Shown piece by piece: positions 188 to 19,616 of a stretch of 19,616 nucleotides of DNA. Positions within the stretch are counted from its first letter, which is position 1. Every line of letters begins with the position of its first letter. The notes beneath the pieces are model-generated. The model saw only the letters and a list, made by a program, of their open reading frames with translations. It was not told the origin of the DNA and did not search any database. The position numbers and the translations under genes were made by a program. Source of the stretch: Cylindrobasidium torrendii FP15055 ss-10 (taxonomy: Eukaryota; Basidiomycota; Agaricomycetes; Agaricales; Physalacriaceae). The DNA lies in assembly GCA_000934385.1 (NCBI GenBank), contig KN880800.1, positions 1 to 19,616 of the forward strand. The letters run 5' to 3'.

Positions 188-205
188 GATTTGATTTGCT
201 GAATG

Positions 206-213
206 TATATAAG
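206..213 (+). promoter_or_regulatory. TATA box of the first gene
   Basis: TATATAAG lies 85 nt before the ATG at 298. Transcription would be expected to start around 235-245, in the pyrimidine-rich CTTTACTCAATCAC region, giving a leader of about 55-60 nt. This is a canonical match in a suitable position, but there is no transcript evidence. Confidence 0.55.
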
Positions 214-297
214 ACCTAATGGTTTCCCTACTTTACTCAATCACTTTTCACCCTCCATCCAACTTCACTTAACCCAACCACTACACTTTCCATCACT

Positions 298-1094: not shown

Positions 1095-1414
1095 CATTAT
1101 TCTTGTACATATTTTATTTTTTCTTTGACCTTTTTGAAAAGTGTGAAATTAAAAGTTGTGAAGTTGAAATGAGACAAAAACATAGAGCTAGCCATATCTC
1201 TGAAAATCCGGATCTTTTAGAACCTTCTGGAAGTTTGCAATCATAATGACACCTTATCGCATCGTCAATGACATCATTACAACATTCATATATATATGTA
1301 TCATGCATTTCACTTTTTTCACTCCCAACTTTATAACTAAAGTGTATCTGTCACCTCAAGGTCCCAAATTTAATAAACCACTTTGATATAGCCTTCTAAT
1401 ATATCTCTTTTAGA
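1095..1414 (+). other. Intergenic region between the first two genes
   Basis: This 320-nt AT-rich gap must hold the 3' end of the first gene (T-rich tract around 1110-1125) and the promoter of the second. An ATATATATAT run at about 1289-1298 and the CTTTATAACTAAAG stretch near 1329 are possible TATA elements. No open reading frame of note was seen. Confidence 0.5.
1219..1233 (+). promoter_or_regulatory. Perfect three-unit heat-shock-element match
   Basis: AGAACCTTCTGGAAG reads exactly as nGAAn-nTTCn-nGAAn, the trimer site bound by heat-shock factor in eukaryotes. It lies about 180 nt upstream of the ATG at 1415, a normal promoter distance. A short site like this can arise by chance, so regulation by heat-shock factor is only a suggestion. 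Confidence 0.3.
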
Positions 1415-3156
1415 ATGTCTTCAATTACCAACCCCAACTCTCAGTTTTTTCTGCCAGCTCAGGACCCCCAGCACCTGCAACATCTGTTGTCGCTGCCCGA
1501 GTCCGAGCAGAACAATCTATTCCGCCATGTAATCCATTTCTTCCAGTACCAGGACACCTGGCTTTTTGACGACGGAATTGCTTTCCCTTTGGACCATCTT
1601 TCCTTGCACCCTGCCTGTCGTATTCCCTCCGCTGCACGCATTGACTCTCTTATGCAACAATTTGGGAGTAATTCCAACCCCTTTGCAAACACTGTCCAGT
1701 CCAACAACCCTTCCAACTTCCTGATTGGGATTATTGATGCTCAGTCTCTTCAACAACTACTTGCTGTGCTCCGGTCAATCGAGTTGGATCTCAACAACCA
1801 CAAGCAGCCTGGCTATATTCAACTTCCCTCTGATGCACAACTCAATAATCTGAACGTGCAAATTCTTTGTGGCGGTCATCGACTTTCTGCGGCTAAACAG
1901 ATGATTGCCAAAGCAGGAACTACTCCTGAATCATTGGCGTCTTGGCCAGTTAGACTTCTTCATCCAGGTACTTCACATTTAGTCAAATATTACTTTTACT
2001 GATTCAAATTTATTAGCTGTTAGCAAAATTCCTATGTCTTATTTACGTCACTATGCCATGGATCTCAACAGCCACCGATCCCTACCTCCTGATCCAGCGG
2101 AATTCAAACTCTGGTTCTATCAGACAATGATGGAGAGTATGAAAGGCTTGCAGTATGGACCAGAACGACTGCGCAGGCTTGGCAATGCTTGCGAGGTCCT
2201 GAAACATCATCGTGAAGGCTTAAAGAAACAGGAACGGCAAGAAATTCAAAAAATCCACGACAAGCTGGTCTATATTCTGCCTTGTACAGTGGACAGTATC
2301 CTTCGATTACTGGAATATCCCTCCCAAGCCTGGAGGTCTGGGTTAACTGCTCTTCAACTTCTGAAACTAGTAGAGGGCAGAGTTACTACACCTGGGGAAC
2401 CTTTGGTAAGATTGAACTCTACAGTTTTAAATTTTAATCTAACTACAACATTATTAGACAGAGGCTCTTGTTATGCATGACCTTGCAGCAGGCATCAGTG
2501 AACTTGAACACTATGTCTTTAGTGAACAGAACCTAGGCAAGCAACTCCACCTACGTGCCAAGAAAAGAGGTCCTGCAATGGTTGATCATTTGGCCATTCT
2601 CTCCAAATTGCAAAGTGCAGCCAAATACTTGTTTGCTAAGGAGGATGCAGAGTGGGGTTTGGAACGTCTGGTGTTTCTTAGTGATCCTACCAATCGTCAA
2701 GCAGATATTCTTGCCCCCAACATGGTGCGTAACTTTTTATAAGTTCAAACATTTACTAATGAGCTGCTAGCTATTTCATCCATCGTTATTCCTGCAAAAT
2801 ATCAGCAAATTCTGGTCGCCTTCTCCATTTCAGAAGAAGTCTTCCAAAGACAAGCTCAAGGAATTTTGCAACGATGCTGAGTCTGGTCAAACCAAGAAGA
2901 ATTGGATTTCCCCAGCAGAGTTGAAGGCTCTTAGGACTGTCAATATGGACTACCCTTTTGAGCTTTCGGCGGATGACATTGGATTTTCCAATAACTTGAT
3001 TGCAGCAGCAGTAAGTGCTTTTCATTCTCATTATCAATAAAAAACTAAACAATATTAAAGTTTATTCTGCTTCTGGATGGTCTACCTGCATTCAACAACA
3101 TCATTGGACAAACAGCTGCAACTCTGCTACCCAGCAACGGGGTTGGGGTTATATAG
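1415..3156 (+). CDS. 512-aa protein with ParB-like GGHRLSAA motif, five exons
   Basis: Model: exons 1415-1967, 2017-2405, 2464-2724, 2771-3010 and 3061-3156, with introns of 49, 58, 46 and 50 nt. All donors are GTRNGT-like except GTACTT in the first, and branch sites such as TACTAAT (intron 3) are clear. The spliced frame is open to TAG 3154-3156. Near residues 148-162 the sequence NVQILCGGHRLSAAKQM resembles the catalytic or nucleotide-binding G-x-H/R-R core of ParB/sulfiredoxin-like domains (typically GxRRxxAA); the preceding RIPSAARIDSLMQQFG and INxPxNFLIG-type segment is also in the order expected of that fold. The rest, from residue 185, is helical and charged with no family I recognise. 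If the ParB-like assignment holds, DNA or nucleotide binding is likely, but no partner is evident. The last exon is short and stops where the GC-rich block begins, so the original gene may have been longer. Confidence 0.72.
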
Positions 3157-3278
3157 GGAAAGATGCTGGTGTTCAGCTTGGGGTCCGTTCTCCTGTAGCA
3201 CAGCCACAGGGGTACGGCCTGGGGTCGAAGTCTGAGCTGCCAACGTGACACGTCGCGTGGGTTGGCGCAGTCACTGTG

Positions 3279-3947
3279 CGCCTGCGTTCCGCAGGCGGGA
3301 GGGAGCCAGGTAATGTGGAAGTAAGGCACGTGTCAATGGTGTGACGCAGCCCTAACAAAAAGACTACACCCAGGGTTGAACACACGGAAGGCAGGTGTGA
3401 GTGAGTACACAAACCACCTGAGCTATGTTGCCAATGGTGAGGAGAGCAACGGGGGATTCGTGAACGACGATGTGGTACCACAAGGCATGTCATGTGTGGC
3501 CGCCTGCGCATCGCAGGCGGAAAGAGGGTGCTTACTTTAGACTGACGAACGGTTCGCACACTGTGCAGTGCGTGGGCGCCTGCGCATCGCAGGTGAACGC
3601 TACCTCAAATCGCATAAGTCCCGGTTAATTTGCGCACGATGGCAGGTACATTGCAAGCCTCTCACACGTCCGCCTGCGAATCGCAGGCGGAAGGAGAAAA
3701 CAACTGACATTCCGAGAATCGATCCGCCCCTGTACGATTGTAGATCACGGATAAATCCACGGAATCCGGTTGAGGGCTGAATCCACGATGTCATCCCACT
3801 GCGCCTGCGTAACGCAGGCGCAGTGTGATCATAACGATGAGAGCGCGTCAAACGGATTCCGCGTATATATCCGCGACCTACAATCGTGCAGGTGCAAATC
3901 AATCCGAATGTCAGCTGTACTCTCCCTCCGCCTGCGATTCGCAGACG
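3279..3947. repeat. Palindrome array 1: six 8-3-8 palindromes
   Basis: Cores at 3279-3297 (centre TTC), 3501-3519 (CAT), 3577-3595 (CAT), 3671-3689 (AAT), 3802-3820 (TAA) and 3929-3947 (ATT). All fit CGCCTGCGNNNCGCAGGCG with arms of eight; four are perfect, and 3577 and 3929 carry one arm change each. Spacing is 222, 76, 94, 131 and 127 nt. The copy at 3802 has perfect 13-base arms (3797-3825). The array precedes the zinc-cluster gene. Between cores the sequence is mostly unique apart from the large inverted repeat described separately. Confidence 0.9.
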
Positions 3948-3960
3948 GACGGGAAGCGAT
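3660..3960. repeat. About 290-bp imperfect nested palindrome
   Basis: The left arm (about 3662-3800) and right arm (about 3822-3955) match as imperfect reverse complements about the core palindrome at 3802-3820. Matching tracts include TACGATTGTAGATCACGGAT in the left arm against ATCCGCGACCTACAATCGTG in the right, CGGAATCCG against CGGATTCCG, and TGACATTC against GAATGTCA. The outer palindromes at 3671-3689 and 3929-3947 are mirror partners: their coordinates sum to 7618, against 7622 for the central core. The whole can fold as one long hairpin or cruciform made of smaller hairpins. Confidence 0.8.
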
Positions 3961-4128
3961 TACTGACTAACCACGTGGTGGGTACGTCAGCAGACGGTGA
4001 CGCATTTTGTGCCACTGCCGTGGGATCGGCACCGGAGCTGGCCGTGTCGGAGTCCGAAATGGCTGACTTGATTAGGACAAGTCATCGTGGGAAACGGCTG
4101 CAATTCCTCTTGCCCTTCTACCACGACC

Positions 4129-5418
4129 ATGGCCACACCACCGCACTCACCACCGACAACACCGCCTGTCCGCCCACCGCCGTCGCAGGAATCCCGCGTC
4201 GTTCCGATTCCGCCGCCGGCGGGAACACCGGCGCCGCCGTCTCCAGTCGACAATGAGCCAGACATCCCCGCCAGGGACGACGACACTGAGCTTCGTCAGC
4301 AGGTCACTGCTGTCCAGGCCAGATTCGCCGGCCTTTTCCGCAAGTTCACTCGTTGGCCAGGTCCAGCACCCAGGCTGCTCACGGAGGAGGATCGTTTCGA
4401 AGACGAAGGCGATCTTGACTGGGAGAACCGCTGCATTGAGAGGACCGACGAGAGGATGGCCAGGATCGCCGCCCAGGACGCGTGGGTGCAAGAGAACCCA
4501 AGGTTCTTGGACCTCGTAGCCGAGCTCGCGAAGGGAAATGCGGCGAAGGGCAAGGAACGCCCGAAACCAACCCAAGCATCGCGCCCGACGCCCCGCTCGG
4601 TGTCTGAAGAGCTTCCCGACTCCGCGATGGGACCCCCGACTACACCCTCCACGATGTCGAAGAGGATGCGCAGCCCCAGTGTGGAGATCATGCCTCCACC
4701 CAAGAAGAACCGCCGGTCTGAGAGCAGCACGAAGAACGTCAGCGCCGCGAAGAGCAAGTCCAAGGAAGATCGCGCGAAGAAGACTGCGCTCGAGAAGATG
4801 AGGAGGACCCGCGAGAGGAAGGAGGAGGCGGCGCGGCGCCGTGCTGAGATTGAGGAGCTAGCCAGAGAGGGCGAGGAGCAAGGTGCGTGGCAGTCACAAC
4901 AAGACGGACACAAGCTAACGATGAGAATAGATGAACCTTGCGAGCGTTGCTCCCTGAAGGACCTGGAGTGCTACCGCAAGGGTAACCTCAAGTGCAGCCG
5001 CTGCCGCGTCGACCGCAGGGGTTGCTCCTTCCGTCCCAACCCGTCTGCTGGCCCCAAAATCTCGGAGGAGGTCGAGCTGGACAGCCTTGTCCAGTGTGCC
5101 AATGACATCCGCGACGCCGCCCGCGTCGCCACCTACATGATCGGCGTCTTCACTCGAGCATACCCGGACGACACGTTCTACCGTGACTGGATCCAGGACT
5201 TCCGGCAACTTTTCGTGACGTGGAGCCCCCGGCAAGACCGGCGCTGGCAGCAGTACAACGACCTCAACGTTCCTGGACCGTCCGGCACATCCCGCAGGAA
5301 CACGCGGAACGACGAGATGGAGGTCGACGGCGGCGACGGGTCCGAATCCGACGAAGAAGAGGATGAGGAGGAAGAGGAAGAGGAGGAGGACCGCGGCCGC
5401 AGGCGCCGCAAGAACTAA
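4129..5418 (+). CDS. Zn(II)2Cys6-like zinc-cluster protein, 413 aa
   Basis: Model: exons 4129-4882 and 4931-5418 around a 48-nt intron with GTGCGT donor, GCTAAC branch site and ATAG acceptor. The intron length is a multiple of three, so an unspliced reading is also open (429 aa). I chose ATG 4129 (context GACCATGG); the frame is open further upstream to 4087 but only from a GTG. Order of regions: proline-rich N-terminus (1-45), charged middle, a basic nuclear-localisation-like stretch (PPPKKNRR) and a highly charged coiled-coil-like segment (about 205-250), then six cysteines at 255, 258, 265, 273, 276 and 283 in the pattern CX2CX6CX7CX2CX6C, a helical region, and a C-terminal glutamate run ending in arginines (about 390-413). 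The cysteine spacing fits the fungal binuclear zinc cluster, but the basic residues lie in the second half (CSRCRVDRRGC) rather than between cysteines 2 and 3, so DNA binding is likely yet not certain. The cluster begins right after the intron. The palindrome arrays on both sides are possible targets. Confidence 0.8.
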   Translation: MATPPHSPPTTPPVRPPPSQESRVVPIPPPAGTPAPPSPVDNEPDIPARDDDTELRQQVTAVQARFAGLFRKFTRWPGPAPRLLTEEDRFEDEGDLDWENRCIERTDERMARIAAQDAWVQENPRFLDLVAELAKGNAAKGKERPKPTQASRPTPRSVSEELPDSAMGPPTTPSTMSKRMRSPSVEIMPPPKKNRRSESSTKNVSAAKSKSKEDRAKKTALEKMRRTRERKEEAARRRAEIEELAREGEEQGAWQSQQDGHKLTMRIDEPCERCSLKDLECYRKGNLKCSRCRVDRRGCSFRPNPSAGPKISEEVELDSLVQCANDIRDAARVATYMIGVFTRAYPDDTFYRDWIQDFRQLFVTWSPRQDRRWQQYNDLNVPGPSGTSRRNTRNDEMEVDGGDGSESDEEEDEEEEEEEEDRGRRRRKN

Positions 5419-5644
5419 GTACATACATGCGCGGGGGTCATTCGGGACGCAGGGGGCGTCGCCGAAGAGTTTTTTTTAAATTTGTATATTACTATGCTGC
5501 GAGTCGGGCGCCTGTGGCCCAAATGTACTTTTTTTGTTGCCTTGCTGTGTGAGTCGTAGATGGTGGATGCACCAGGTAGTAGGTGACCAGAGCAGCGCGC
5601 AGAGCTAAGAGGTCGACAACAAGATGGTCGATGTAAGTCTGTCA

Positions 5645-6017
5645 TGCCTGCGATGCGCAGACGCAGAGGTAGGGGACCATATTATTTGACAGGCTGTATC
5701 AAGCAACAAGCTCGACATCGTCCTCCCGCGCCTGCGATGCGCAGACGCAGTGATGCGATGTCGCAGCCGCTGGCTGGCAGCATGGAGCAACAGACTTGAC
5801 GTTGTCCTCCCCCGCCTGCGATACGCAGGCGTCGTGAGGCTGTGTCAGGCAGCTGACAGGGACAGTGACGGACCGTGATCCGGATGAACAGGAGGTTATT
5901 CTCCCGCACCTGCGATGCACAGGCGTGCTGACAGCGTGTGCACAACCCGCCTTGCACACTCTGACGTCTGGCAACTGACGTCTCGGGTATCCCTGCTGCG
6001 CCTGCGGAGGGCAGACG
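5645..6017. repeat. Palindrome array 2: five palindromes, 84-94 nt apart
   Basis: Cores at 5645-5663, 5729-5747, 5813-5831, 5907-5925 and 5999-6017, with centres ATG, ATG, ATA, ATG and GAG. Spacing is 84, 84, 94 and 92 nt. The 5813 copy is perfect; the others carry one to three arm changes such as CGCAGACG or CACCTGCG. The sequence before the cores is itself related between units (a GACATCGTCCTCCC / GACGTTGTCCTCCC tract precedes cores 2 and 3), so this is a diverged tandem array with a palindrome in each unit. A sixth, decayed copy lies at 6270-6288. Core 5729 has additional perfect arms CGACATCG (5713-5720) and CGATGTCG (5756-5763). Confidence 0.9.
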
Positions 6018-6145
6018 CTTTGGTCCTCATCGTCGACTCACGATAGCGTGGCAGTGTGACGACACCGTGGGAAAATCCGGTGTGACCAAAGGAGCTGTCA
6101 ACCAGAGTCTCTTGACCACGAACCACTATCATCGACCGTGAACAG

Positions 6146-6285
6146 GTGAGTAGCGCCCTCCCGACCATCGCGCCGAACACCGACTTATCCCGCGCAGTGA
6201 CTATCTCAAGGTTTTCATTGTAAGTTCCTCGACGTAGATCGTCTCAGTGCTAAACAATCCCTCCCTCTCCGCCTGCGCCCAACAG
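6146..6285 (+). other. Two putative introns in the helicase 5' leader
   Basis: 6146-6197 has a GTGAGT donor and CGCAG acceptor; 6220-6285 has a GTAAGT donor, TGCTAAAC branch region and CAACAG acceptor, ending 12 nt before the ATG at 6298. Both match the lengths and signals of the coding introns in this window. The second intron ends inside a decayed palindrome (6270-6288), so that repeat would supply the splice acceptor. Transcript data are absent. Confidence 0.45.
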
Positions 6286-6297
6286 ACACATTTCAAC

Positions 6298-9200
6298 ATG
6301 GGATCAAAAGGAAAGAAAAAGGCCACCGCTGCAGCTGCCAAGCCCAGTTCCATCAAGCTAGCCATCATTCTAGGTTGCTGGATTCGGGCGCCAGAGAAGT
6401 TCGTGGCAGGAGACTTCGACGGGGAAAAGATGAACGCCCCAATTGTTGACCACCTTGGAGAAGGATTCCCGCCAATCTGGGAGGAGGACCCCGCGCGAGA
6501 GGATGCGCAGGGAAAAACGTATCGTTGGGCGGAGATTTGGGACGAGGAAGAGTTTAAGACGGTGCAGAGGGCATTGAAGAAAGCGGGCACGGCTTTTTTC
6601 GCAGTGAAGCCCAAGCGCCCGGCGGATTTTCGATGGAAGGACAACGAGGACGTCACCGGGACTGAGCTCGAGATGCTGGAGAGCTTCCAGGTACACGCAG
6701 AGGAGGAAAAATGGCATCTTGCCTTAGATACACCGGTACGTGGCAGGCAACGGGTTGCCGTATACGCTAACGTTGCTTAAGATCGACGACTACATGACCG
6801 ACCAACACATTACGGTCAAGGATATGTTCGATGCCGACGAGGAGGGGGTAGGAAACGACATTCCCGGCATCGACTCTTGGTCCCCGCACATCGCGGGAAT
6901 GGCAATGATGCTCTTCGGCTGGGTCGCAAACTGGTCGAAAAAACTTCCCGACAAGTTTGCGTATCTAATGCGGGCTCTCATCACCCTGCGCCTCGACGCC
7001 ATCCGCAGTCTCACAAAACGAGCCATGTCCGCCAACAGGCGTCGAACAAATGAGATTGAGAAGGCCCTTGGGAAGAACTTCCTTTTCAAGCAGACGGTTC
7101 CGCGGGGATTGACGACGCGTGCGCTGACTGCTGCGCACAAGAAGATGCAAGAATACAGGGAGACACTGGTGTGGACACACATTTCACCCGAACAACAGGC
7201 CGTCATGGAGGAGGAGATTGATCTGGAAGACGAGAACGCCTACGACCAGATCCACAAGCGCTGGACTAACCTGCCGGACGACGTCAAGTACCGCGAGATC
7301 TGTCTCACGAGCATCGGCTGGATGGCGGTCTTAATCCTGAGACGCTCGGGTCGTGATGTTCTAGCCGACATCGAGTTTGACGAGACGAGTGCATTATTAG
7401 GTACGTGAGGGGCTCTCGCTCGTTCTAGGCTGACATTCACAAAGTTGCACGCGGAAAATTCCTTGCGGGAATGGTGAAGGAGCAGGCCGTCAACGAGATG
7501 GCGGAGATGTCCAACGCTGACACCGACGGCTTCAGAAACGAGGTCAAAGCATACGTGGTAGAGGTCACACGCCGCGAGACTCCAGTCGACCTCAGGGCCC
7601 TCCAGGCTATGCTGGCCAATCGCGAGCCCGATGTCATTCTGCGGGATATTCTGAGCACGGAGGGCGACTCGATTGGGATCGAAGGATATCGCCAATTTGA
7701 CGTCGGCCAGCTCAGTCACCTGCTGGGATATACTGGTCCCCGCCCTTTTGGATTTCGCGAGTGGTACTGCAAAGAGAAACTAGCCGCATGCATGGCTGAC
7801 CATGGCAAGAGGTGTCCCCACGCGGAGGACATCCGATTGTTTTGGCATCAGCTTTGCTGCCTCGCGCGCATCTTCGAGAACGTCTTTCAGGGCAGTCGCG
7901 GCGATATTCCCGGACTTCTCAACGGAGGACCTGCTAACCAGGCTGCCCGCGCGCCAATCGCCTTGCAGGAGGGATGGTCGAACCTGCCAGGGATGCTGCT
8001 AGCCCTCGACGTCGGCATGGGGAAAACAGTGACCGTTCTCGCGAAGATCGCAACGTATGCCGCTCTTGTCGATGCTCAACACGCATCGCCGAATGGAACC
8101 GGAATCGGGGTTATTGGAGACTCCCGTAAGTCGTTTCTGTATGTGTACCACGCCTGCGATGCGCAGGCGGCGAGGGAGGGCGGCGCAGGTGACGTGGCAC
8201 CCACGCGTCACGTTTCACGTGACACGTGGGACATCCTCTGGGCACCCGTCGCCTGCGCATCGCAGGCGGCATTGGGTGGCAGAGGATGTGGGGTGGAAGG
8301 GTCGGCGTGAGCTTGTCGGTCCATGCACCGCAAGCCATTCGATGTCATCAACGCCGCCTGCGCAGCGCAGACGTCGCAGGGTGACATCGAATGTCCTACG
8401 AGTCTCGAGCAACGAGACTCGCAGGTGATGAAGCCTCTTCTCCTCCCCGCCTGCGCTGCGCAGACGACTCCGTTCCCCGAACGGATGTCGGGTATCTTTT
8501 TCCTTGTGCCTCCCTCCCGCCTGCGATCCGCAGGCGTCACGAGCATCCTACTGACATTGTCGCAGAATTCCACCTCCCCAGCGCTGGCCATGTCATCGTC
8601 GTTCCTGCTGGGCTGATGGCGCAATGGAAGGAGGAGATCTTCCGGTACATCATTCCGGGTTACTTCTCCGTCTACGAAGTGAGAAGGACGAAGACGCACT
8701 GGGCCAACGACCTGAAAGCATTCGAGGAGAGTCCCCAGGTGCCCCACCGCAAAATTCTGCTCATATCGCACACCGTGAGTAACCTCTGCGTAAGCCTTCC
8801 GATGCTCATTCCGTCAGTCCCTTAAACGAATGTGGACGGACAACCCAGGGCACAAGAGCGGCGGCCACAGCGTTGTCAACTGGACGGCGCGAGGGACAAT
8901 CTGGAGAATGTCATTTGGCACGGGATCGAACGACGAGGTGCACGTTGGTCGTGGTGAGACCACGACTACCGATTCGTTTGATGCTCTCTGGGCATTGACC
9001 CTGGTCAAATCCGGTCTCACGGGGACACCCCTCATGCAAGGAGCAAACGTAAGTGTTTTCTCGGGCGCGGAATGCTATCTGACTATGGCCATGACAGGAT
9101 CTCCGCTCAATGGCACGCCTCTGCCGCCCTCCAATCTTCACCGAGCTCGAAATGATGAGCTTCAATTCGCAGGAACAAGACCTCAAGCGCCTGAAGCGTC

Positions 9201-11753
9201 AGTACGGCATCAAGCTCGAGGACGTCGCTGCGAACCCGACGAAGATGAATGAGCTCACGAAGAGTGTGGCAGGCTCCGTCAGCATGGTCCACAGCAAGAT
9301 CATGGTCGCGCAAGCCCGCAAGTACATCATCCCCTACACCCTCCGCGTGACGAAACACACGAAGAACAACGAAGGAAAGCTGGTGACCCAGGGTTTGCCA
9401 GACAATACCTCCCTCATCGTCGGCATGGAGGTTAGCCAGGAAGAATTCCACGCTGCAGACACCGAGTTCCACAAATCTCACGCCGGCGAGAGCACAAAGT
9501 CGAAGAACACCGGTCTCGAGGGCATGAGTGCCTCCCGTTTTGGAGTGAGTAGCTGCGACTCAGCTCATCATTGTCTGACCATTGTGTAGACATTTTTCGC
9601 GGCGGGTCGTAAAGTCCTCAACGCCGGACTCTTCCTTGGACTGCAGGAGTCTTCTTACATCCCGACCTCTCAGGAGGACTTCATCCGACTTCGCGCCACC
9701 AAGATGCGTACCCTCCTCGACGTCGTCCACGGCATGGTCACCAAGGAGCCTGGGAACGCCATTCCAGCCACGAGGGAGGTCGTCGACAAAGACGGAAACA
9801 CGCACACGGAACCCCTCCATGGCAGCCAGCACTGTATTGTCGATCTCACGGAATTAGGCCTTATCCCCGCGCACACGGAACAATGGGTACCACCACCCAC
9901 CGTCTCTTTCGCGGAGATGAAGAAAGCAGGCAAGCGTATCCCGAAAGTGGTTGTATATCTCGCAATGGCACAATATCACCCCGCCGTGGTAGCGGTACGT
10001 GCGGGAATGGGCTTCTACAACGTTTACTAACTGACTTCCAGATGTTTAACATGTGGGGTATCAAGGCCATTAGCATGAGTGGTGCCTTCGCTCCAGCCCG
10101 CCGCGCAACAATCCAAAAAGAGTGGGAAGCAAAAGAGGACTTGTCCGTCCTCATCATCTCGGACGCCGGAACGCAGGGACTGAACCTCGTTGCCGCTGAT
10201 GGCATGGTGCTTCAGGTAGCCAATTCGCGCCCTCCTCTCCTCTGGCTCACGCACGAATTCAGGACATTCCCTGGTCGGAGAACGAGGTCATTCAAATCAT
10301 TGCACGCCTCTGGAGACACGGTCAGAAGCGACCGACATTTGTGGTTCGTCTCATGGTCAAGGGAACAGTCGAGCACATGATGGTCGCCAATGGCACTGCC
10401 AAGCGCGACATGCTCGAGAAGTTCTTGGACGGCAAGGCCAGCCCCCGTACGTTTCGCAGATGGGCTGTCGATTTTTGCTGAACACGTGTAGACCTTATCC
10501 GTGCCCTCAAGGGATCTGGCACAGAAGACGACGACGACCTCATCTTGGGCGACATGGAGGTGTCGAAGGAGGAGAAGGAAGAACACGAGAACGCAGTCGC
10601 TCCCAAGGCTCGGAAGACGCGCAAGAAACCACCTCCAAAATCGAAGACAGTCGTCGCCTCTGACGACGAGAGCGAGAGGGGGACAAGCCAACAGCCGATA
10701 GAGATCGACTCCGGCGACGACAAGGCCAAGGCGGCCAAGCCCCGCCCGAAGAGAGCACCAGCGAAGAAGGCAACAAAGGTGGTGACCAACATTGCACCAC
10801 CCAAGCGGGTCGAGCTCCCTGGCCTCGAGTCCGAAGATGAACCTGACGCTCCTCTCCCACCGCCTCAGGCAAAGGACATCGAACCGCCGACGCAGCGCAT
10901 GGACTCTCCGCCACCCCCAACTCCTCCCGCTCACGTCGAGAGAGATGTCCCGATCGCTCCCGTCCCTCCGCCAGATGCTCACGCTCCCGGTGATGACGAT
11001 AGAGATATCGAGATGGAGAAGACTAACGCTGACATCCCCGACACTGACGGAGTGCTCAGCAAGTCTCTGTCCACCCGTCCCTCTCCCATCCAGGACAGTG
11101 ACGCATCCCATCCCGCCCAGCGGGAGCAGGACAAAACCGACGAGAACCCCGTCGTGATGCCGCCTCCCTCTCAGCCTGTCCCCGTCGTGATGCCGCCTCC
11201 CTCTCACGCTACCCCCATTGCGATGTCGCCGCCCTCCCAGCGCCCAGGCCCTCCCGACGCGGTATCTCGTCGCAATGACAGTGACATGTCGCAGAGCGAC
11301 AGCGACGACGCCGAGGGGAAGGGCCCGCTAGACCCGAGCACTCAAAAGCAGCCATCCGCGCCTGCTACTCCTGCAAGAGGGAATTCGCCCGACAGCCATG
11401 CTATGGATGTCGACAACTCCGCCGCTGACCTCGATCCCGATGTCTTTGGCGGTCCTGACGATAACCTTACGGATCCGCCGGATGAGCGGCCGAAGCGACC
11501 GCTGTCGAGTCCCGAGGCCGTCCCGCGTTCAAAGCGTGCGAAGGGAAAACAGCCTGCTCGTGGTCGCTCCCCTGTCACCCAGCCCGTCGCAGGACCATCT
11601 CGCAGCTCGCGGGTTACATCGTCGTCTCGTCGTCGTGATGTTAGGGTCACGGACAGTCCCTCCCCGGAACGGGGCCCTGATCCTGATCTGTCGAACTTCC
11701 CTCGTGCCCCGGAGAGAGCCAAGCCGTCCCGCGCAAGGAAATCCCGTCGTTGA
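6298..11753 (+). CDS. SNF2-family ATPase/helicase-like protein, 1549 aa
   Basis: Model: exons 6298-6735, 6782-7400, 7445-8125, 8566-8774, 8818-9048, 9098-9544, 9590-9994, 10042-10215, 10263-10446 and 10492-11753 (4650 nt, all frames join). Motifs in order: Walker A GMGKT at residues 543-547; motif Ia-like VVPAGLMAQW just after the 440-nt intron; DEVH (motif II) at 688-691; LTGTPLMQ (motif III) at 716-723; SDAGTQGLNL (motif V) at 1050-1059; and QIIARLWRHGQ (motif VI) at 1079-1089. These are the hallmarks of SNF2-type double-stranded-DNA translocases, which use ATP to remodel nucleosomes or other protein-DNA complexes in the nucleus. The 540-residue N-terminal region is not recognised. The C-terminal 420 residues are proline-, serine- and acid-rich, probably disordered, with basic nuclear-localisation-like stretches (RPKRAPAKKATK; KRAKGKQPARGR). 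Walker A is preceded by LDV instead of the usual DEMGLGKT-type context, so it is a divergent member. All introns are 43-49 nt except the third (440 nt), filled with palindromes. Convergent with the 975-aa gene. Confidence 0.9.
8126..8565 (+). repeat. 440-nt helicase intron carrying palindrome array 3
   Basis: Donor GTAAGT at 8126 and acceptor GTCGCAG ending at 8565, with CTGAC as branch site near 8551; it joins exon 3 to exon 4 in frame between Walker A and motif Ia. Five cores lie inside: 8151-8169 (ATG), 8250-8268 (CAT), 8355-8373 (CAG), 8448-8466 (CTG) and 8518-8536 (ATC), 70-105 nt apart. Core 8250 is centred in longer arms (ACATCCTCTG at 8231-8240, its complement at 8280-8289), and core 8355 likewise (CATTCGATGTCA at 8336-8347, complement at 8382-8393). 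Two extra hairpins are present at about 8199-8229 (CACGTGACACGTGGG as one arm) and at 8399-8421 (CGAGTCTCG / CGAGACTCG). Confidence 0.88.
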
Positions 11754-11889
11754 TTGGTGTCGTGCTAGTTTAACGCGTATTTTGTAAATGTGTATGTGTG
11801 CCGCCCCAGAGGGGGAAAATTTCATTCTGCTTGTCTTGTCTGCTGCTGTGAATAGATGACCTGCTCGAATACTGTAAGATAATGTGCAA

Positions 11890-12722
11890 CGCCTGTGTTC
11901 CGCAGGTGGGAGGCGGCGGGGTCTTCCATCCTCAGTGGTTGGAATGCCAGATGCCGCAGGCCGGTCCGCACAAAGTCGATGTCGTGATCATATTCGTGTA
12001 GAGGCACAGCCGGATCGTGTGTCACAACGGATTCGTCTGCGCGTCGCAGGCATACAGGGACGCACCGCTACTACCCGTCGCTACAAGCTTGACACTCCCT
12101 GTACGCGATCTTCCCGCGTCTCCGCCTGCTGCACGCAGGCGACACTGCACTCGATCTGGCAGTCAGCATGGTCTCCCGTCGTTACTACTCACCGTCACCA
12201 TCGTCGGTGTGACCGCTCATCGAGTTCATCCCGTGTCTCCGCCTGCGTTAAGCAGGCGCTGCCGTACAGCGTCACTCACTACGACTTTCATCCGTCGCTA
12301 CTACTCACCGTCACCATCCTTGGTGACACTCATCGAGTTCGTCTCCCACTTCTCCGCCTGCGTTAAGCAGGCGCTGCCGCACAGCGTCACTCACTACGAC
12401 TTTCATCCGTCGCTACTACTCACCGTCACCATCCTTGGAGACACTCATCGAGTTCGTCTCCCACGTCTCCGCCTGCGTTAAGCAGGCGCTGCCGCACAGC
12501 GTCACTCACTACGACTTTCATCCGTCGCTACTACTCACCGTCACCATCCTTGGTGACACTCATCGAGTTCGTCTCCCACGTCTCCGCCTGCGTTAAGCAG
12601 GCGCCGTTGCAGTCAATCACCCGATCAGAATCAACCTTTCATTCACCGCTACTACTCACCGTCACCTTCCTATGACACTCATTGAGTGCGTCCCATGTCT
12701 CTGCGCCTGCGTTGTGCAGGCG
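11890..12722. repeat. Palindrome array 4: eight palindromes
   Basis: Cores at 11890-11908, 12034-12052, 12123-12141, 12240-12258, 12355-12373, 12470-12488, 12585-12603 and 12704-12722. Spacing is 144, 89, 117, 115, 115, 115 and 119 nt. The four copies from 12240 to 12585 are identical (centre TTA with the right arm AGCAGGCG), showing recent tandem amplification; the others have centres TTC, CGT, GCA and TTG. This is the only cluster where the inter-palindrome sequence is strongly conserved. Confidence 0.9.
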
Positions 12723-12806
12723 CTTCCTCACGGCATCATTCACTACAACTTTCATCCGTCGCTACTACTTACCGTCACCTCCCTAGGTGCTACCACTCAT
12801 CATTGC
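12074..12806. repeat. 115-bp tandem repeat, about six units
   Basis: Each unit runs from CATCCGTCGCTACTACTCAC through CCGTCACCATC, a CACTCATCGAGTTCGTC tract and a palindrome core to CAGCGTCACTCACTACGAC. Three units (about 12270-12610) are almost identical. The first unit (from 12074) and the last two are clearly diverged, the usual pattern when arrays expand in the middle by unequal exchange or slippage. Confidence 0.88.
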
Positions 12807-13009
12807 ATTTCCCCGCCCCATCGGACGGGCCACGCAGATCCACTCTCACGCTAACAGTGAGTAACCTCATCTTACAAATTGCGAGCTCTACACCGTACAC
12901 GTACTCCATCTACGCAAATACCCCATCCTAAATACGCGTCCCGTCACTTCCATTCTCTCACCGGCTCCCTGTTGAAGGGTCGGCTGTCGAAACATTCAAA
13001 CATCACCCT

Positions 13010-16000
13010 TTATCTGCCTGTGAATAGGATGAGCAGACGGTGTAATCTATGTCAAACCACTTACCCCCGCCCAGAACCTGGATAACCTCGTTTGCATCCT
13101 GTTCATCCTCACTCTCTTCTGTCGGTCTACGATGAGTCGGCGCGAGCCTGGCCCTCACCGCTGTCTGTCCTCGGCGGCTGCGACGGGCAGCAACAATCCG
13201 TGTGGCGAGATCAAATGGAATGTCCTCATCCTCTCCCCCGTCTTCGTCCGAAAGCTCTGCGTCATCAATAGCACCAGCAGTCCGCGTGAACGCATCCTGT
13301 GCCGCCGTGTGGCGTGCGATCCTCTGTGGATCATCCCCTTCGTATCCTTCCGCATTGTCGTCCAGTGCAAGTGTCCGACCCCTGCAGTCACTAATAACCT
13401 TGGCCTTGTACTTGGGATTGAGGTGGATCAGGATGGTGTGGTTACTAGTCTTTCCGCCTTCGACGTGATAACGGGTCCATTTACGATTTCCGGCGGACTT
13501 CGCCTTGGGCTCGAAGATCTTTGTACCGCTCAGGTGGAAAAACCACTTGCAGTTGTTGTGCATGGTCACGAGAGCACTGTGCAATGTTATCACAATGCTT
13601 TCTGCAGGTTACTTCGACGTACTTGTGAACCTCCATTGCCTCTGCTACCTGGTTTTGACTCATCTTGGCACAGGACCAGTGAATATACTCCATCCAGGCA
13701 GGGATCGTGTCCCAGCGGTGCTCTTTGCTGTTCAACCTCGAGGCATGTTTGGGCAATTCGACTGACGGCGTCGGCCACAGAAGGTTTTGCGTGTGTAGCC
13801 AGTCCTTTTCGGATGTCTCGTTGCAGACAGTGAAATCCTTGAGATACATCGAGATTGCTGTGTCCCTCATCGTTTTGAATCCAACACGTGCGATTTGCGC
13901 CTCCGTCAGCCTGCTGGAAGGCGTGTGCTGGCCTGTGTCGGGTATCTTCTGCCAGATGGAGCACAGGACATTGAGGTAGAAGTAGGCTGCGTCACGGGGC
14001 GGATCTGCCTGTGCCTCCTCTGGGTCGTGCCCTTCGTACCGGGTGACCACGGGCATTGTGACGGCGGCATTGGTCACCCCATTAGGCAAATCAACTTTCC
14101 TCTTCTTGATTGCGCGAGGCGGGTCGACACGTCTGGGTCGCACGTGTATGGAGTCCTTTGTGACGAGGGTGGTTGGTACACCCAGGAGGGCCTCAATTTG
14201 CGACATTGTCTTCTTCCCAAAGTACCGGGTGATTGTTTCCTCGGAGGCCTCGCCGACACCGGGAGATGCATTGCGGAATGTGAGAATGTTTCCCCCATTT
14301 CGATTGTCACTCGGATAGACAAGGGGTGGCAGCAGGAGGCCTCCACGGGCAAGAATGGGCACAGGCTCCATGTTGCTGCGAGGAGTGTAGGCCAGCCAAG
14401 CCTGATCATATCCATGAGCATTGCCGTTAGCATAGACAGCCAGTGCCATGTTGCGCTCCCAGCTGTAGTTTGCTGGCCGGGAATGGACGGAGTTGAACAT
14501 ATAGGAGAGCCCACCAACCAAGGTTAGGCACGACAACTCCCGACGGCACACCTTGGGTGTACTGGCAATATAACGGGCTATGAGACTAATCCCAAGTGGT
14601 CGAGTCAACCTCCACTGCCTGAGAACTGTCAACAAATCTTCACAAACATGTTGTTGTTACTTACCAGCAGACTGTCGTTGGCAACACATACACATAGTTA
14701 CAGAGGTCCTCGGGACTGAATGTGCGGCGGTATACTCTTGCTGCATGCTCGTACGGGATCCTAACTTCGACCCGGAGAAGGGATTGCATTTTCGCAATTG
14801 CCGCATCGAGGCAGGCATTGTAAACCTGGCGGAGCGTTTCTGGTGGGTAGCTGCCATCCTCCAACTTTAGAAACTCAAGGCCATTGGTGTGGAGAGTGCG
14901 GTGTGTGCCAGTGCTGGATGCATTGTATGCATAAAATTTGTCGCTGGTATATACCTGGGCTTTGGATATCTGCTGGGCAATTAATTGATCGTATAATATG
15001 AACAGCGGATGTACTGACCTCGTGATCACCCACAGGGTCCCGGAAGGACATGTCTGCCCCCGCCACCTTTTGTAGACAACACCACGGGTTGATTGTGTAC
15101 TTGCCGGTCTCAAGATCCTCAGCCTCGACATCAAAGATAGCCGATACAATGTTCATGTGGGAATGACCTTCACTACGCGGCAGGATAGTCCAGTTCCGGC
15201 TTTCATGACGAATTTCGATCCCCATGTCAACGAAGATGTGGGAGTGTGTCTTCCTAACGTCTCGGAGGAAATGGTCGACCATTGCCACGGTTGTGTCATA
15301 GTTGTCCCTGTGCCTTGTTGTGTCTTTGGTGCCTCTCATCTGGAGGAAGAGATATGCTGATTTCCCCCACGGATAGTTCTCATGGAGGTCGTCCAACATG
15401 GAATGGAGAACGACATCAACACTTCTTGCGGCGAGACCTCGTGTGGACCTCGTGAGACGTTGGTGAGTGAACTGACGTGCACGGTTTGTTTCGGCTTCGA
15501 GGGTCGCTGGCCATGTCGTGACGATGTCCGGCCGATGTTCTTCGACGGCATTGCGCATGATATCGTAAAAAGTCTTGCGTATGGTCTGCATGTCCTCATC
15601 CTGCACTCCCGGCAGCATCATGTACATATTGTGACGACCGGAAGGCCCACACTCTGCGAACAGCACCGCGGCATCCTTGCCAGGGTCCACCCTCCGTTGC
15701 TGCTCTCCTTCAACCTCTGCCTGAATGGGGTCAGACATGAAAGGAAGTGTAGCGGACTTCTCACCATAAAATTGACGTTGACATTGAGACGCCCAAGGCA
15801 CGGGTAAAAGATGGGCACCATGAGGGGCGACAGGTCGTCACGCCATGGATTAACATCTGCAAACACCAAAACCGAGTCGATGTCACGTTCCACAATACAG
15901 TCGCGCAGTTTAGCCAATTGATTTTCCGCAGGGTTGACCTTGATGTTGTACTGACGGGTGGGGGTCGTTCCACAGAGAGCAAGGTCGATATAATCACGGA

Positions 16001-16184
16001 CGGCAGCCTTGTCGAGGCGATCGAACGGGGACCACACTGTGTCTGGTGCTGTCGCTATCCGTCCCTGCTTCCGACCGAGAAGCTCGACCAGCGCGAGGAG
16101 ATCAATATCTCGACGCTCAGGGACGGGGTTGACGACCTCGATAACACTGTCGGTGTCGCTGGCAGCATCTGAGGCATCACTCAT
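13010..16184 (-). CDS. Unrecognised 975-aa protein, six exons
   Basis: Model on the minus strand: exons 16184-15765, 15720-15019, 14954-14665, 14618-13623, 13576-13065 and 13017-13010. Introns are 44, 64, 46, 46 and 47 nt with GTGAGA, GTCAGT, GTAAGT, GTACGT and GTAAGT donors, and the spliced frame is open throughout. The last intron removes a short tail; without it the frame ends at 13003 and gains about 15 residues. ATG 16184 starts MSDASDAASDTDS; the frame upstream of it has no ATG. I do not recognise the family. Visible features: acidic-serine N-terminus, a region rich in H, R and aromatic residues (DNYDTTVAMVDHFLRDVRKT; HIFVDMGIEIRHESRNW) in exon 2, a basic nuclear-localisation-like stretch (PPRAIKKRKVD, about 635-646), and an acidic tract (DDAELSDEDGGEDEDI) near the C-terminus followed by basic RRSRRGQ. 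No signal peptide or membrane span. It is probably a large nuclear protein. It converges on the helicase gene, and array 5 lies upstream of its start, so the two may function as a pair. Confidence 0.8.
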
Positions 16185-16427
16185 CGTCGGGACGTACGGC
16201 GCGACGGCGGTAGGCGGGTCGTGGGAAGGGATCCCGGAGGTAGGAAGCAAAGAAGCACGGGCGATCAGATCAGACTGAATGACAGCGGCCCGATTCGTCC
16301 GATACCAATTTTATCGTACGCTAAGTCAATGAATTTACAATCATTGAACGGCCTTCCATCGCTCCGTGTGCATGGTTTCTATTCCAGCGTGGCCTGCGGT
16401 TCCCGATGACCAATGCTGAGCCCGATC
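16185..16427 (-). promoter_or_regulatory. Leader and probable promoter of the 975-aa gene
   Basis: Reading toward the gene on the minus strand, a weak TATA-like GATAAAAT lies near 16312, about 130 nt before the ATG at 16184. Beyond it begins palindrome array 5. No other open frame of interest overlaps. The placement of the promoter is inferred only from position. Confidence 0.3.
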
Positions 16428-16863
16428 CACCTGCGCGGCGCAGGCGCAGTGCGAGGCGAGCATTTCGTCAATGTGCTCGTCGATCGGTTGGCGGTTTCCG
16501 CCTGTGTTCCGCAGGCGGGTAAGCACGGACCGTGCATGAAGTTCGTTGAAGCCCCAGTGTATGATCCGCGCCGGTCGCCTCCGCAGAGGAGTGCAGCTGA
16601 CGGAGGATCACTTCGCCGCTCCTCTCGTCTGCGCAGCGCAGGCGGGTGAGATGGCAGTCTCCCCCGACGCCATCACCGAGTGAGTGCCTCCCACGATCCG
16701 CCTGCGTTGCGCAGGCGGTGGTGGACGTGATCTGTCACCGTCACCGCTGCCGTCATGCCGCTGACTTTCCGCCTGCGCTGCGCAGGCGCCCGGGGACGGG
16801 ACTGATGTGTGACCGCACTGACACTTCCATTCCGCTGCCAGGGCCGCCTGCGCAGCGCAGGCG
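16428..16863. repeat. Palindrome array 5: six palindromes, mostly 71-75 nt apart
   Basis: Cores at 16428-16446 (CGG), 16499-16517 (TTC), 16626-16644 (CAG), 16699-16717 (TTG), 16770-16788 (CTG) and 16845-16863 (CAG). Spacing is 71, 127, 73, 71 and 75 nt; the 127 gap may have lost a copy, and a damaged remnant CGCCTCCGCAGAGG is seen near 16576. The last three are perfect; the last has 11-base arms (16842-16866). Core 16428 is centred between AATGCT (16412-16417) and AGCATT (16459-16464). This is the last array before the composition drops to AT-rich at about 16900. Confidence 0.9.
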
Positions 16864-16894
16864 GCCCAGGTGGAGTCCGTCGACATCAGGGACA

Positions 16895-17876
16895 GTCACA
16901 TCTGCACTGATCCGACAGATATATCCGTACAAGTGCATTGTTGTTCTGTCCGTAGCATACTATCAGTAATTCATTCTGCTGTACTATAAGACAATCATAT
17001 AAACGTGACCAAGGCTGACATTACATTGAGTGGGAATCAAATCATGCTATCAGTGCTATACTTGACATTGCATTCAATAACAAGCCGGTACTACTAACTT
17101 GATTTGTAAAATAATTAAACTACCGGAGCTATACTGGGTGTTCTTTATAATCTATGGTATAATAAATAGATTATAACTGGCAAATACAATAGATTATGAC
17201 CAGCTGATACGCTTTACTGGGCCAGTTATTTAAAATTGCTCTTAGACACAAAAAACCCTTGGATAGCTTATTTACTTTGCAAAATACTCAATACAACATT
17301 ACTAAACATGTTTACAATATTTGTACTTAACTGTAGTTTGTTCCCAAACAGTTAATTGGGCAGCCGGTCTGTTAACCGTACAGCGGTCAATAACATTGAA
17401 GTGCATGTGTATGAATTGGAATGACTTCAAAAATGTAATTACTGTACAGCATACTCCAAACCCCAGCATTGCAGAATCTCTTCATTTAACAATCTGAGCT
17501 AACCTTTTATTGTCACTTGGACAGCGCGCAGTCAGACAGCAGATGGTGTCGCAACATTAAGACAATGGTCTGTACACCACTAGATGAGCTTAAGGAACAG
17601 ATGAACTTCACCAAAGACCAGTTAAATAGCAGTTAACACACTCAAGTTAACATTAAGTCTTGAAATTTACACATCAGAAAGATGTATAGGTGGTCTTTCA
17701 TATGTAAATTGCAAAAGTAATAGTGCGGCCATCAAAGCCATGTACTAGACAAACAGTGCCAATATATAATCACGAATGTCATCGAAAAAGGCTCCCAAGA
17801 ACCTTGCCAAATCCTATTCCGCATCTTACTCTATAACTCGTTCAAGCTTATAGAGACTTGGGAGGCGTTCAAGGGG
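16895..17876. other. AT-rich region without visible genes
   Basis: No open frame above about 60 residues and no convincing spliced gene on either strand. A short inverted pair ATAACTGGC / GCCAGTTAT lies near 17174 and 17223, and CTCCCAAG / CTTGGGAG near 17792 and 17856. None of the 19-bp palindromes occurs here, which marks the right edge of the GC-rich block. Confidence 0.6.
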
Positions 17877-18440
17877 TTGCTAAGTTTACCGTCCCTGTAC
17901 CATTTTAATAGCTTACGGTCCGAGCCCACTATCCTTATACTATCTTACGTTCCAAGCTTGCCGTCCTTATAATACCTTACCGTCTAAGTTTACCGTCCTT
18001 GAACCATATTAATAGCTTACAGTCCAAGCTTACCATCCTTATACTATCTTACGGTCCAAGCTTACCATCCTTATCTTACAGTCCGAGCTTACTATCCTTA
18101 TACTATCTTACGGTCTAAGCTTACCATACTTATAATACCTCACCGTCTAAGTTTACCGTCCTTGTATTTGAATACCTTATGGTCCAAGCTTACTGTACTT
18201 ATAATACCTTACTGTCTAAGTTTACGGTCCTTGTACTATTTTTATAGCTTACAGTCCGAGCTTACTATCCTTACACTATCTTCCGGTCAGAGTTTACCAT
18301 ACTAGTAAGTTTACTGTTCTTATAATATCTTACTATTTAAGTTTACCGTTTTTGTATTTTAATACCTTATGGTCTGAGCTTACTGTTCTTATACTATCTT
18401 ACGGTCTACATTTACTGCCTTACTCTGTTTTCATAATACC
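17877..18440. repeat. Degenerate 32-bp minisatellite, about 16 units
   Basis: Units approximate CTTACGGTCCAAGCTTACCR followed by TCCTTATACTAT. Beginnings such as CTTACGGTCC, CTTACCGTCT, CTTACAGTCC and CTTATGGTCC recur at about 32-nt steps. Some units are lengthened to about 40 nt by ...TTTTAATAG or ...TTTGAATAC endings, at intervals suggesting a higher-order period of roughly 105 nt. Differences between units are dominated by C/T and A/G exchanges. Confidence 0.85.
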
Positions 18441-18930
18441 ACATGGGGTGGCCACTCTACAGTTCTGACAGGACCGTACCCCGGATGGTCGGCAAAGGAC
18501 CAAAGCAGGTGTTTAAGATTAAAAAAGGCAAAACTGAGGCACTATCAGACGGAACGGCCAGTGTGGTGTTGTTGACTGGGAAGGATTGGAAGGATTAAAC
18601 AGTCCTAGTAGGACCAGGTCGGAGATGGACGGGGAAGGCCCAAAGCGCAATACGGACCAAGGAGTAACCAGAGAGATAAGTGTAGCGTTGGAATATGCTC
18701 AGAATGAGATAAAGCGCCGGGCAATGACTCGCCAAGTTGGTTGTCAGAACTTTGGACTGAAGCCGGCATACACTTGTCGGGATGTGTGCAGCATTGGGAG
18801 GTGCATAGAGCAAATGCGAGTATATAGTGAAAGGACGAGTGTTCGCAGCGAAGCCAAATCAAGCTGGTATAAATGTAACACTGGCCAGCAACTTTATGAG
18901 TCATTCAGCCCGCTAAACAGTTAACCTTTG
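18441..18930 (+). other. Unique stretch with a doubtful 99-codon open frame
   Basis: An open frame runs from ATG 18625 to a stop at 18922-18924 (99 residues), with several cysteines (CQNFGLKPAYTCRDVCSIGRC) and many charged residues. It matches no family I know, has no splice sites that extend it, and lies between two repeat tracts. It may be chance or a decayed gene, so I do not call it a coding region. Confidence 0.25.
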
Positions 18931-19450
18931 GCTAAGGCTGCCACTGGTACGGTGAAGTATGGCCCGAGCTCTACTGTTTTATGTCAAGTAAAAATCATCT
19001 AAAGCAGTCTAACCTGCGACGGTCAAGCTATATACAAGAGTAATTAAGCAGTTAAGGTAAAGGTTAATGCAATTTAACTAACTAGTAATACAAACTAATA
19101 AAGGTAAGACAGCTAGTAAAGCAAGTCAAGCTGATTAGTTCAAACAGCTAGTGAGCAAAGTAAGATGCACTTAGACAAGCTAGGTGAGTTAGTTAACAAG
19201 GTTAGCTACTAGTAAAAGACTAAGTAAAGGCGTAAAGACAGGGAGTAAGTCAAGTTTGAAGGTGGTAGTTTCAAGCTAGTACAGCAAGGCAAGACAGCTA
19301 GTTCACAGCTAATCAAAGGTAAGTAGGTGAGTTAGTAAACTCAGTGTTAGTAGAAACAATTGGTGAGTGCTACAAATATTAGAAAGACTTAGTTAACAAG
19401 TTAGTTAAATTGTAGACAGGTAATAAGACAAGCTAGCAAGCAAAGGTAAG
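18931..19450. repeat. Purine-rich low-complexity tract (AGCTAGT/GTAAG/GTTAG)
   Basis: The plus strand is a run of short words such as AGCTAGT, GTTAGTTAACAAG, AAGGTAAG and AAGTCAAG, with no open frame. No fixed period is evident by eye. It reads as a heavily diverged simple repeat. Confidence 0.6.
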
Positions 19451-19469
19451 TGCCGTTAGTCAGTAGAGT

Positions 19470-19590
19470 AGAGTCGGATAGGAGTGTGCTTGGAGTCGGG
19501 GGGAGCACGCTCGGGGCTGGCGCAGGTGCAATGGGGTAGCGGAGCATGCTGGGAGTGTGACGGAGCGTGCTCGGTGAGTTTAAGGTTATG
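19470..19590. repeat. Short GGAGCAYGCTSGG repeat, four copies
   Basis: GGAGTGTGCTTGGAG, GGAGCACGCTCGGGG, GGAGCATGCTGGGAG and GGAGCGTGCTCGGTG follow one another from about 19480 to 19577 at intervals of roughly 20-45 nt. GGAGCACGCTC-type cores contain the small palindrome GCAYGC. The element is GC-rich compared with its surroundings. Confidence 0.6.
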
Positions 19591-19616
19591 ATTAAAGTTT
19601 TCAATATCTTTTATTT

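Follow-up and report, generated by a model that had tools for sequence, protein, structure and literature searches.

We analyzed a 19,616-bp stretch of the wood-decay fungus Cylindrobasidium torrendii FP15055 ss-10 (Agaricales, Physalacriaceae; contig KN880800.1, positions 1–19,616; hereafter the window). It contains three gene models (A, B, and C; Table 1) and arrays of a 19-bp palindrome, in which the 8-bp arms CGCCTGCG and CGCAGGCG enclose a center of three bases. A sequence-only reading of the window had claimed about 30 copies in five clusters, and both claims were borne out: the pattern CGCCTGCGNNNCGCAGGCG has 30 matches within a limit of three mismatches (11 are exact, 14 have a single mismatch, 5 have two, and none has three), compared with a mean of 0.10 and a maximum of 2 in 200 dinucleotide-preserving shuffles. 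No copy is found at 1–3278 or 16864–19616 of the window. Not one of the 30 overlaps an exon of our gene models, which were built from sequence, again in agreement with the earlier reading; exons make up 8,892 of the 13,754 bases of the block that carries the palindromes (65%). The non-coding stretches of more than 100 bp number five, and each carries 5–8 copies.

Table 1. Features of the window, with positions counted from its first base
Feature	Position	Strand	Description
Left terminus	3147..3223	+	GGTTATATAGGG plus ~77 bp inward
Palindrome cluster 1	3279..3947		six copies (3279, 3501, 3577, 3671, 3802, 3929), between terminus and gene A
Gene A	4129..5418	+	413 residues; exons 4129–4882 and 4931–5418
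Palindrome cluster 2	5645..6017		five copies (5645, 5729, 5813, 5907, 5999), between genes A and B
Lone half-site	6270..6277	+	CGCCTGCG, decayed copy
Gene B	6298..11753	+	1549 residues, ten exons, SNF2-like helicase
Third intron of gene B	8126..8565	+	440 bp, holds cluster 3; the other eight introns are 43–49 bp
Palindrome cluster 3	8151..8536		five copies (8151, 8250, 8355, 8448, 8518), inside third intron of gene B
Palindrome cluster 4	11890..12722		eight copies (11890, 12034, 12123, 12240, 12355, 12470, 12585, 12704), 3'-to-3' region between B and C
Tandem repeat	12176..12779		period 115, 5.2 copies, one palindrome per unit
Gene C	13003..16184	-	999 residues, five exons (981 residues in NCBI model)
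Palindrome cluster 5	16428..16863		six copies (16428, 16499, 16626, 16699, 16770, 16845), upstream of gene C

Within clusters, the palindromes are spaced by 70–131 bp with one gap of 144 and one of 222 bp, and the range of 70–130 proposed earlier holds for most of them. The spacings show no convincing helical phasing (Rayleigh nR2 ≤ 4.2 over eleven periods tried). To judge from the 115-bp units in cluster 4, tandem duplication has enlarged part of the arrays, and a non-redundant set of 27 copies was obtained by dropping the tandem-array copies 12240, 12355, and 12470. The CTG/CAG core is invariant in all 27. The center, described before as free, is variable (16 different centers) but not flat, its middle base being A or T in 24 of the 27 copies. 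Positions flanking the palindromes carry at most 0.52 bits in this set, and the flanks of individual copies are mostly unrelated to one another. In the arms of the window copies, the consensus is matched at 104 of 120 CpG positions and at 232 of 240 others. The second most common half-site, CGTCTGCG (7 of 54), contains the CGTCTGC of a sister type described below and turns up in single arms, consistent with recognition of half-sites. Where one or two decayed copies had been announced, we recover one, the half-site at 6270; another isolated half-site lies at 5398 within gene A.

We searched the C. torrendii FP15055 ss-10 assembly (29.3 Mb, 494 contigs) for the palindrome. Exact matches number 13, of which 11 fall in the window and 2 at the end of contig C376. 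With up to two mismatches there are 51 places; once the 30 window copies and the 2 exact ones on C376 are removed, 19 remain compared with 16 for a reversed control, which is about chance level. A sister type, CCGTCTGC-N5-GCAGACGG, has three exact copies in contig C214 and six in C425. The form common to both types, CGYCTGC-N5-GCAGRCG, has 34 exact matches (23 in the window, 6 in C425, 3 in C214, 2 in C376, and none elsewhere), and its reversed control has 1. The palindrome is thus not evenly spread over the genome, and all four loci that contain it also bear the terminus GGTTATATAGGG. As far as sequence can tell, the palindrome differs with the element type (CGCCTGCG-N3-CGCAGGCG here, CCGTCTGC-N5-GCAGACGG in the sister type), and the common form is restricted to the four terminus-bearing loci. 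In viral contigs, the palindrome is found in 20 stretches with one site apiece and without arrays; a viral origin was rejected, peptide patterns of protein C having matched nothing there.

The sequence GGTTATATAGGGAAAG is found, with one mismatch allowed, at six genome places (the window, C376, C12, C214, C277, and C425), and GGTTATATAGGGAA(A/T)G likewise occurs at six. Five of the six terminus places lie less than 500 bp from a contig end on their inner side, as expected of repeats that an assembler could not cross. Over the terminal ~77 bp, the window and C376 are identical at 56 of 75 aligned positions, and they have GGGTTATATAGGGAAAG in common directly before their first palindromes. C277 and C425 contain an identical 104-bp end in opposite orientation, and C12 and C214 are 97% identical over 77 bp. 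Outside the terminus, the flanks show no relationship over 1 kb: of 15 pairs, 14 have no match at an expectation value (E) of 0.01 and the last has an 18-base match. By eye, the last flank bases are partly alike, with TTGG or TTTGGGG preceding the terminus in four of six cases, which leaves the outermost base of the terminus uncertain. In C425 the terminus is traversed by a stop-to-stop frame of 465 codons, some 432 of which belong to the flank; because shorter frames run across the other ends as well, interrupted genes are no more than suggested.

Palindrome arrays accompany four of the six termini, the type described here in the window and C376 and the sister type in C214 and C425. The remaining two cannot show an array, C12 being cut at ~+100 by another repeat and C277 ending at +104. 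Copies 3279 and 3501 are located at +132 and +354 from the terminus, and their counterparts in C376 at +122 and +329. A candidate third palindrome family in C12 (GCAAGTACTTGC) was rejected: it belongs to the other repeat, which sets in at ~+100 of the terminus and is present in C266, C348, and C61. The GCAAGTACTTGC palindromes of this repeat are 91–92 bp apart and occupy the contig ends of C12 (stretch L036), C266, C348, and C61 (L062, L063, and L064); the terminus search gave no match in the stretches of the latter three contigs.

Stretches resembling tRNA B and A boxes were noticed by eye near the terminus, on the minus strand of the window (3356–3382 and 3412–3427) and of stretch L016 (9503–9529 and 9559–9574). 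They lie at nearly equal offsets from the terminus in the window and C376 and are followed outward by CTTTTTG; a transcript of RNA polymerase III reading toward the terminus is possibly indicated. ARAGORN found no tRNA in the window and a single tRNA-Gly in six other loci (in L037, 8 kb from the terminus). An Rfam search returned six matches at E up to 1 (the best at 0.0006), all far below gathering scores and resembling inverted-repeat matches. We rejected an origin from a tRNA, a short interspersed nuclear element, or another known RNA on these results.

Clusters 1, 2, and 5 are positioned upstream of genes A, B, and C, where ordinary promoter elements of a non-mobile host gene cluster would be expected. 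Such elements would not account for clusters 3 and 4 in an intron and a 3'-to-3' region, for the lack of an exact common-form match elsewhere in the genome, or for a terminus that recurs at six places, and we regard this explanation as quite improbable.

To compare arms and centers between loci, terminal regions were aligned pairwise, and the arms were marked from the intact palindromes of one partner (the window or C214). The arms are identical at 32 of 32 positions between C376 and the window and at 48 of 48 between C425 and C214. For the centers the counts are 2 of 6 and 5 of 15 identical positions, respectively, and for all other aligned positions beyond the 77-bp terminus 119 of 234 and 149 of 210, leaving out 34 and 140 gapped columns. 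Although the positions are few, centers agree less than their surroundings (7 of 21 versus 268 of 444, Fisher p = 0.02; p = 0.007 for C425 and C214 alone). C376 contains 12 CpGs outside the arms compared with 29.2 expected, and 8 of 8 arm CpGs are retained. Judged by these alignments, the arms are conserved while centers and surroundings drift. Three of the six C425 palindromes are found opposite intact C214 ones, one opposite a degenerate unit, one in a gap, and one past the end of C214.

The sequence-only reading had offered a dimeric protein site, a hairpin, or a foldback unit. Pair counts within the window bear on the hairpin, which could act in DNA as a cruciform or in RNA as a stem-loop, a small-RNA source, or a transcription stop. 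Among 240 arm pairs, 16 are broken, 8 are wobble pairs, and none is compensated, and 19 of the 30 copies contain at least one non-Watson-Crick pair. These counts speak against a hairpin, although the change between the two types is compensated (C-G to T-A at arm position 3) and perfect 8-bp stems with a three-base loop fold well (mean -11.1 kcal/mol as RNA). Copies 3802, 8355, and 8250 are embedded in longer inverted repeats (p = 0.000, 0.003, and 0.021 versus mismatched flanks), but the other 27 of the 30 have no significant stem extension. Centers that drift more than their surroundings, at the few positions available, might be loops; placement is alike upstream, downstream, and inside genes, and the Rfam scores lend no support. 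We consider a hairpin function rather unlikely. The intron cluster also contains a long inverted repeat (8198–8427) that scores 39.7 bits with the MIR918 model, for which the gathering score is 268; this score probably arises only from the long hairpin.

Short GC-rich palindromes spread in the mitochondrial genomes of fungi, and repetitive extragenic palindromic (REP) units in those of bacteria, and each 19-mer could similarly be a tiny mobile palindrome that has multiplied within a repeat-rich block. With these systems the arrays have in common a short GC-rich palindrome in intergenic DNA and introns; here the palindrome is nuclear, tied to one element family, and variable in its center. The mostly unrelated flanks of the copies would suit independent units. 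Such units appear unlikely, since the common form is confined to four terminus-bearing loci (34 of 34 matches, with near-control counts elsewhere and no independent spread in the genome) and since 16 different centers occur in 27 copies. Offsets from the terminus are moreover kept between diverged copies, and the tandem copies of cluster 4 bring their flanks along. Together, these points make a mobile palindrome very improbable. A dimeric site fits best among the three forms on offer, because the arms are identical between diverged copies while the centers drift, 19 of 30 copies tolerate a non-Watson-Crick pair, and 0 of 240 pairs are compensated. The palindromes are probably protein-binding sites under selection, as the conserved arms suggest.

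Gene A encodes the same 413-residue protein as CYLTODRAFT_427028, whose annotated name reads, as far as legible, 'Zn(2)-'. Protein A contains a zinc-cluster-like cysteine pattern, CX2CX6CX7CX2CX6C. The signature of C6 zinc clusters (Zn2Cys6, GAL4-type) is CX2CX6CX5-12CX2CX6-8C, and the cysteine spacing of protein A fits it. All six cysteines are kept in a paralog (P0005), which is encoded on a 1,003-base contig and is 68% identical where aligned. A helix is predicted at residues 205–247, directly before the cysteine cluster, in a poor structure model (mean predicted local distance difference test (pLDDT) score of 45, two-sequence alignment). On the minus strand of stretch L041 (C444:1–9000), three neighboring frames contain six-cysteine zinc-cluster-like motifs, with no common-form palindrome in the stretch; two of the three were retrieved with protein A (34% identity).

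Protein B contains SNF2 (PF00176, E = 1.3e-11) and helicase-C (PF00271, E = 1.1e-8) domains, and its closest PDB chains are INO80 and DDM1. Protein C corresponds to CYLTODRAFT_494734 of the same strain (100% identity over 98% of our 999-residue model) and gave no family match in our Pfam scan. Its structure model (mean pLDDT 29, two-sequence alignment) is, like that of A, too poor for a fold search. A paralog of C, 53–54% identical, is located on a 2,614-base contig. The two tiny paralog contigs apparently lie outside the searched assembly, since they were not recovered when A and C served as queries; contigs this small are what broken repeats would leave, and neither could be linked to an array. 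Protein searches (~8,000 candidates scored per search) yielded two matches each for A and C, all from C. torrendii, and one weak SNF2 match for B. The orphan genes hint at what may be an undescribed kind of multigene fungal element.

A distant pair of B and C relatives (39% identical in the best stretches) is arranged head to tail on contig C380, which suggests that the association of B with C extends past this element. The C380 pair lacks such palindrome arrays. Between the B and C relatives (stretch L040, ~2430–2775), we noticed by eye inverted copies of GCGAAACCCCGCTGGCAAAATC, perhaps a small inverted-repeat element.

The block had been described as GC-rich. Its G+C content of 57–58% is at or just above the 51–57% of 12 other stretches of the genome (not a random sample), and the odd part is the flanks, with 40–41%. 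The CpG observed/expected (o/e) ratio of the block is 1.00 with the palindromes masked (0.92–1.15 in array regions), compared with 0.36 and 0.64 in the flanks. This level would fit protection from methylation; it fits a young insertion equally well, because the 12 ordinary stretches range from 0.94 to 1.08. The left flank consists of an AT-rich, CpG-depleted gene model (1415–3141, o/e 0.36) that extends up to the terminus; it contains what we take to be a ParB-like motif and matches DUF3723 at E = 0.013, below the cut-off. AT-rich tandem repeats, chiefly of a 32-bp unit (CTTACGGTCCAAGCTTACCATCCTTATACTAT), occupy 17880–18420 in the right flank. A stretch of 753 bp from the right flank, searched to locate the far end of the element, matched nothing but itself in the genome, and the left-flank gene has no genome paralog that could help to locate the right flank. 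The right end of the element lies at or beyond 16863, probably near 16.9 kb.

The sites could instead serve the transposition machinery, with a putative transposase (perhaps protein C) or a partner binding them for end recognition or excision. Cluster 1 does start 132 bp from the terminus, an offset kept in C376, and bound subterminal motifs are known: those of TNPA in CACTA (En/Spm) elements diverge between families (PMC2613891), and in piggyBac ends a dimer of zinc-binding domains binds palindromes of 19 bp (PMC11707139). The sites are not limited to the ends, however, but are also found 5 and 9 kb inside the block, in an intron and a 3'-to-3' region, and our Pfam scan of A, B, and C found no transposase domain. 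We think this role unlikely, with a modest chance of being correct.

Taken together, we favor, at a probability of roughly 0.55, a reading in which the palindromes would be binding sites of a dimeric protein, kept by selection within a family of multigene mobile elements. Zinc-cluster-like protein A may be the binder, at somewhat less than even odds. In the mechanism we propose, an element-specific palindrome repeated in the long non-coding stretches, the intron included, would mark the whole element; dimers of A would bind these sites and could act together with B, the SNF2-like helicase, to keep the chromatin of the element open or to help build a transposition complex, in the manner of VANC or TNPA in plants. 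That the purpose is anti-silencing, and not transposition or simply the regulation of genes, we hold to be less likely than not. That a fungal element has independently evolved self-recognition and anti-silencing through its own palindrome, zinc-cluster protein, and SNF2 remodeler, which would keep the marked DNA open within methylated surroundings, with diverged codes averting cross-activation between related elements, is an idea we put forward as doubtful.

Several observations weigh against this interpretation. The mobility of the element, which we infer from a recurrent sequence, rests on one kind of end: we identified no right end, terminal inverted repeat, target-site duplication, or empty site, no inverted terminus is present in the window, no duplication common to the flanks of the oppositely oriented ends (C277/C425 and C12/C214) was seen by eye, and the transposase domain is missing from A, B, and C as noted. 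The B–C pair on C380 is accompanied by neither a terminus nor a common-form palindrome. With one mismatch allowed, the sister type is found at 10 places versus 8 for its reversed control, so that only the nine exact places count. The degenerate C214 unit opposite a C425 palindrome and the C425 unit in a gap indicate that palindrome units also get lost. For anti-silencing, the CpG level of ordinary stretches and a depleted first 375 bp of the block (o/e 0.62) are unfavorable. As to protein A, no Pfam zinc-cluster profile matches it at E up to 1, its alignment with a GAL4 chain is weak (E = 0.15), and the basic GAL4 stretch RLKKLK is changed to SLKDLE. GAL4-type proteins usually read CGG triplets, and the conserved arms CGCCTGCG and CGCAGGCG contain neither CGG nor CCG.

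Element-specific motif arrays with which a transposon withstands silencing have been described for plant elements. We found neither a fungal case nor this element in the open-licence PubMed Central papers searched. If our reading is correct, a single fungal element would combine a chromatin remodeler with a motif of palindromic form and a candidate protein to bind it, making the self-marking of selfish DNA testable in a second kingdom, and naturally diverged site types together with paralogs of A and C would provide material to study the coevolution of sites and proteins.

Among fungal DNA transposons, Kyakuja, Dileera, PlavakaA, and PlavakaB resemble the present element in being multigene basidiomycete elements, some with an anti-methylation gene (TET/JBP); their ends read CA..TG in Kyakuja, TGT..ACA in PlavakaA, and CATCA..TGATG in PlavakaB in the accessible text of PMC12730594, which mentions neither SNF2 nor Cylindrobasidium. 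Here the left end is GGTTATATAGGG, with neither CA..TG nor CACTA-type or Plavaka ends, and the Pfam scan of A, B, and C revealed no transposase of the KDZ (Kyakuja, Dileera, Zisupton), CACTA, or Plavaka type. Starships have been reported in a basidiomycete (PMC13066641); no captain (tyrosine recombinase) domain was detected in A, B, and C at E up to 1, and the right end is not located. The palindromes of piggyBac and piggyBat (PMC11707139) occur in one or a few copies of another sequence at the ends only, and no piggyBac transposase was seen here. CACTA elements and TNPA (PMC2613891) offer a parallel in arrays of short motifs that vary from one related family to another and to which a protein of the element binds; their arrays are subterminal only and accompany CACTA ends and a transposase, whereas ours run through the whole block with no transposase recognized.

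In motif placement, the block resembles the VANDAL elements of Arabidopsis with their VANC anti-silencing proteins (PMC5735166, PMC10398659). VANC targets are described as motifs that lie in introns, between genes, and in terminal non-coding DNA, often as tandem repeats that vary from one related element to the next (PMC5735166). We likewise find an element-specific short motif in non-coding DNA that is tandem-repeated and differs between related elements. Apart from the SNF2 and helicase domains, nothing passed the curated cut-off in the Pfam scan of A, B, and C, and no VANC or Mutator-type (VANDAL) protein was recognized among them. The VANC21 motif is the 9-bp YAGTATTAY, and the accessible text of PMC5735166 never uses the word 'palindrome'. 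Binding by an element-encoded protein is established for VANC and only proposed for the present element, which would differ from VANDAL in its 19-bp palindrome, its zinc-cluster-like protein, its SNF2-like helicase, and its fungal host.

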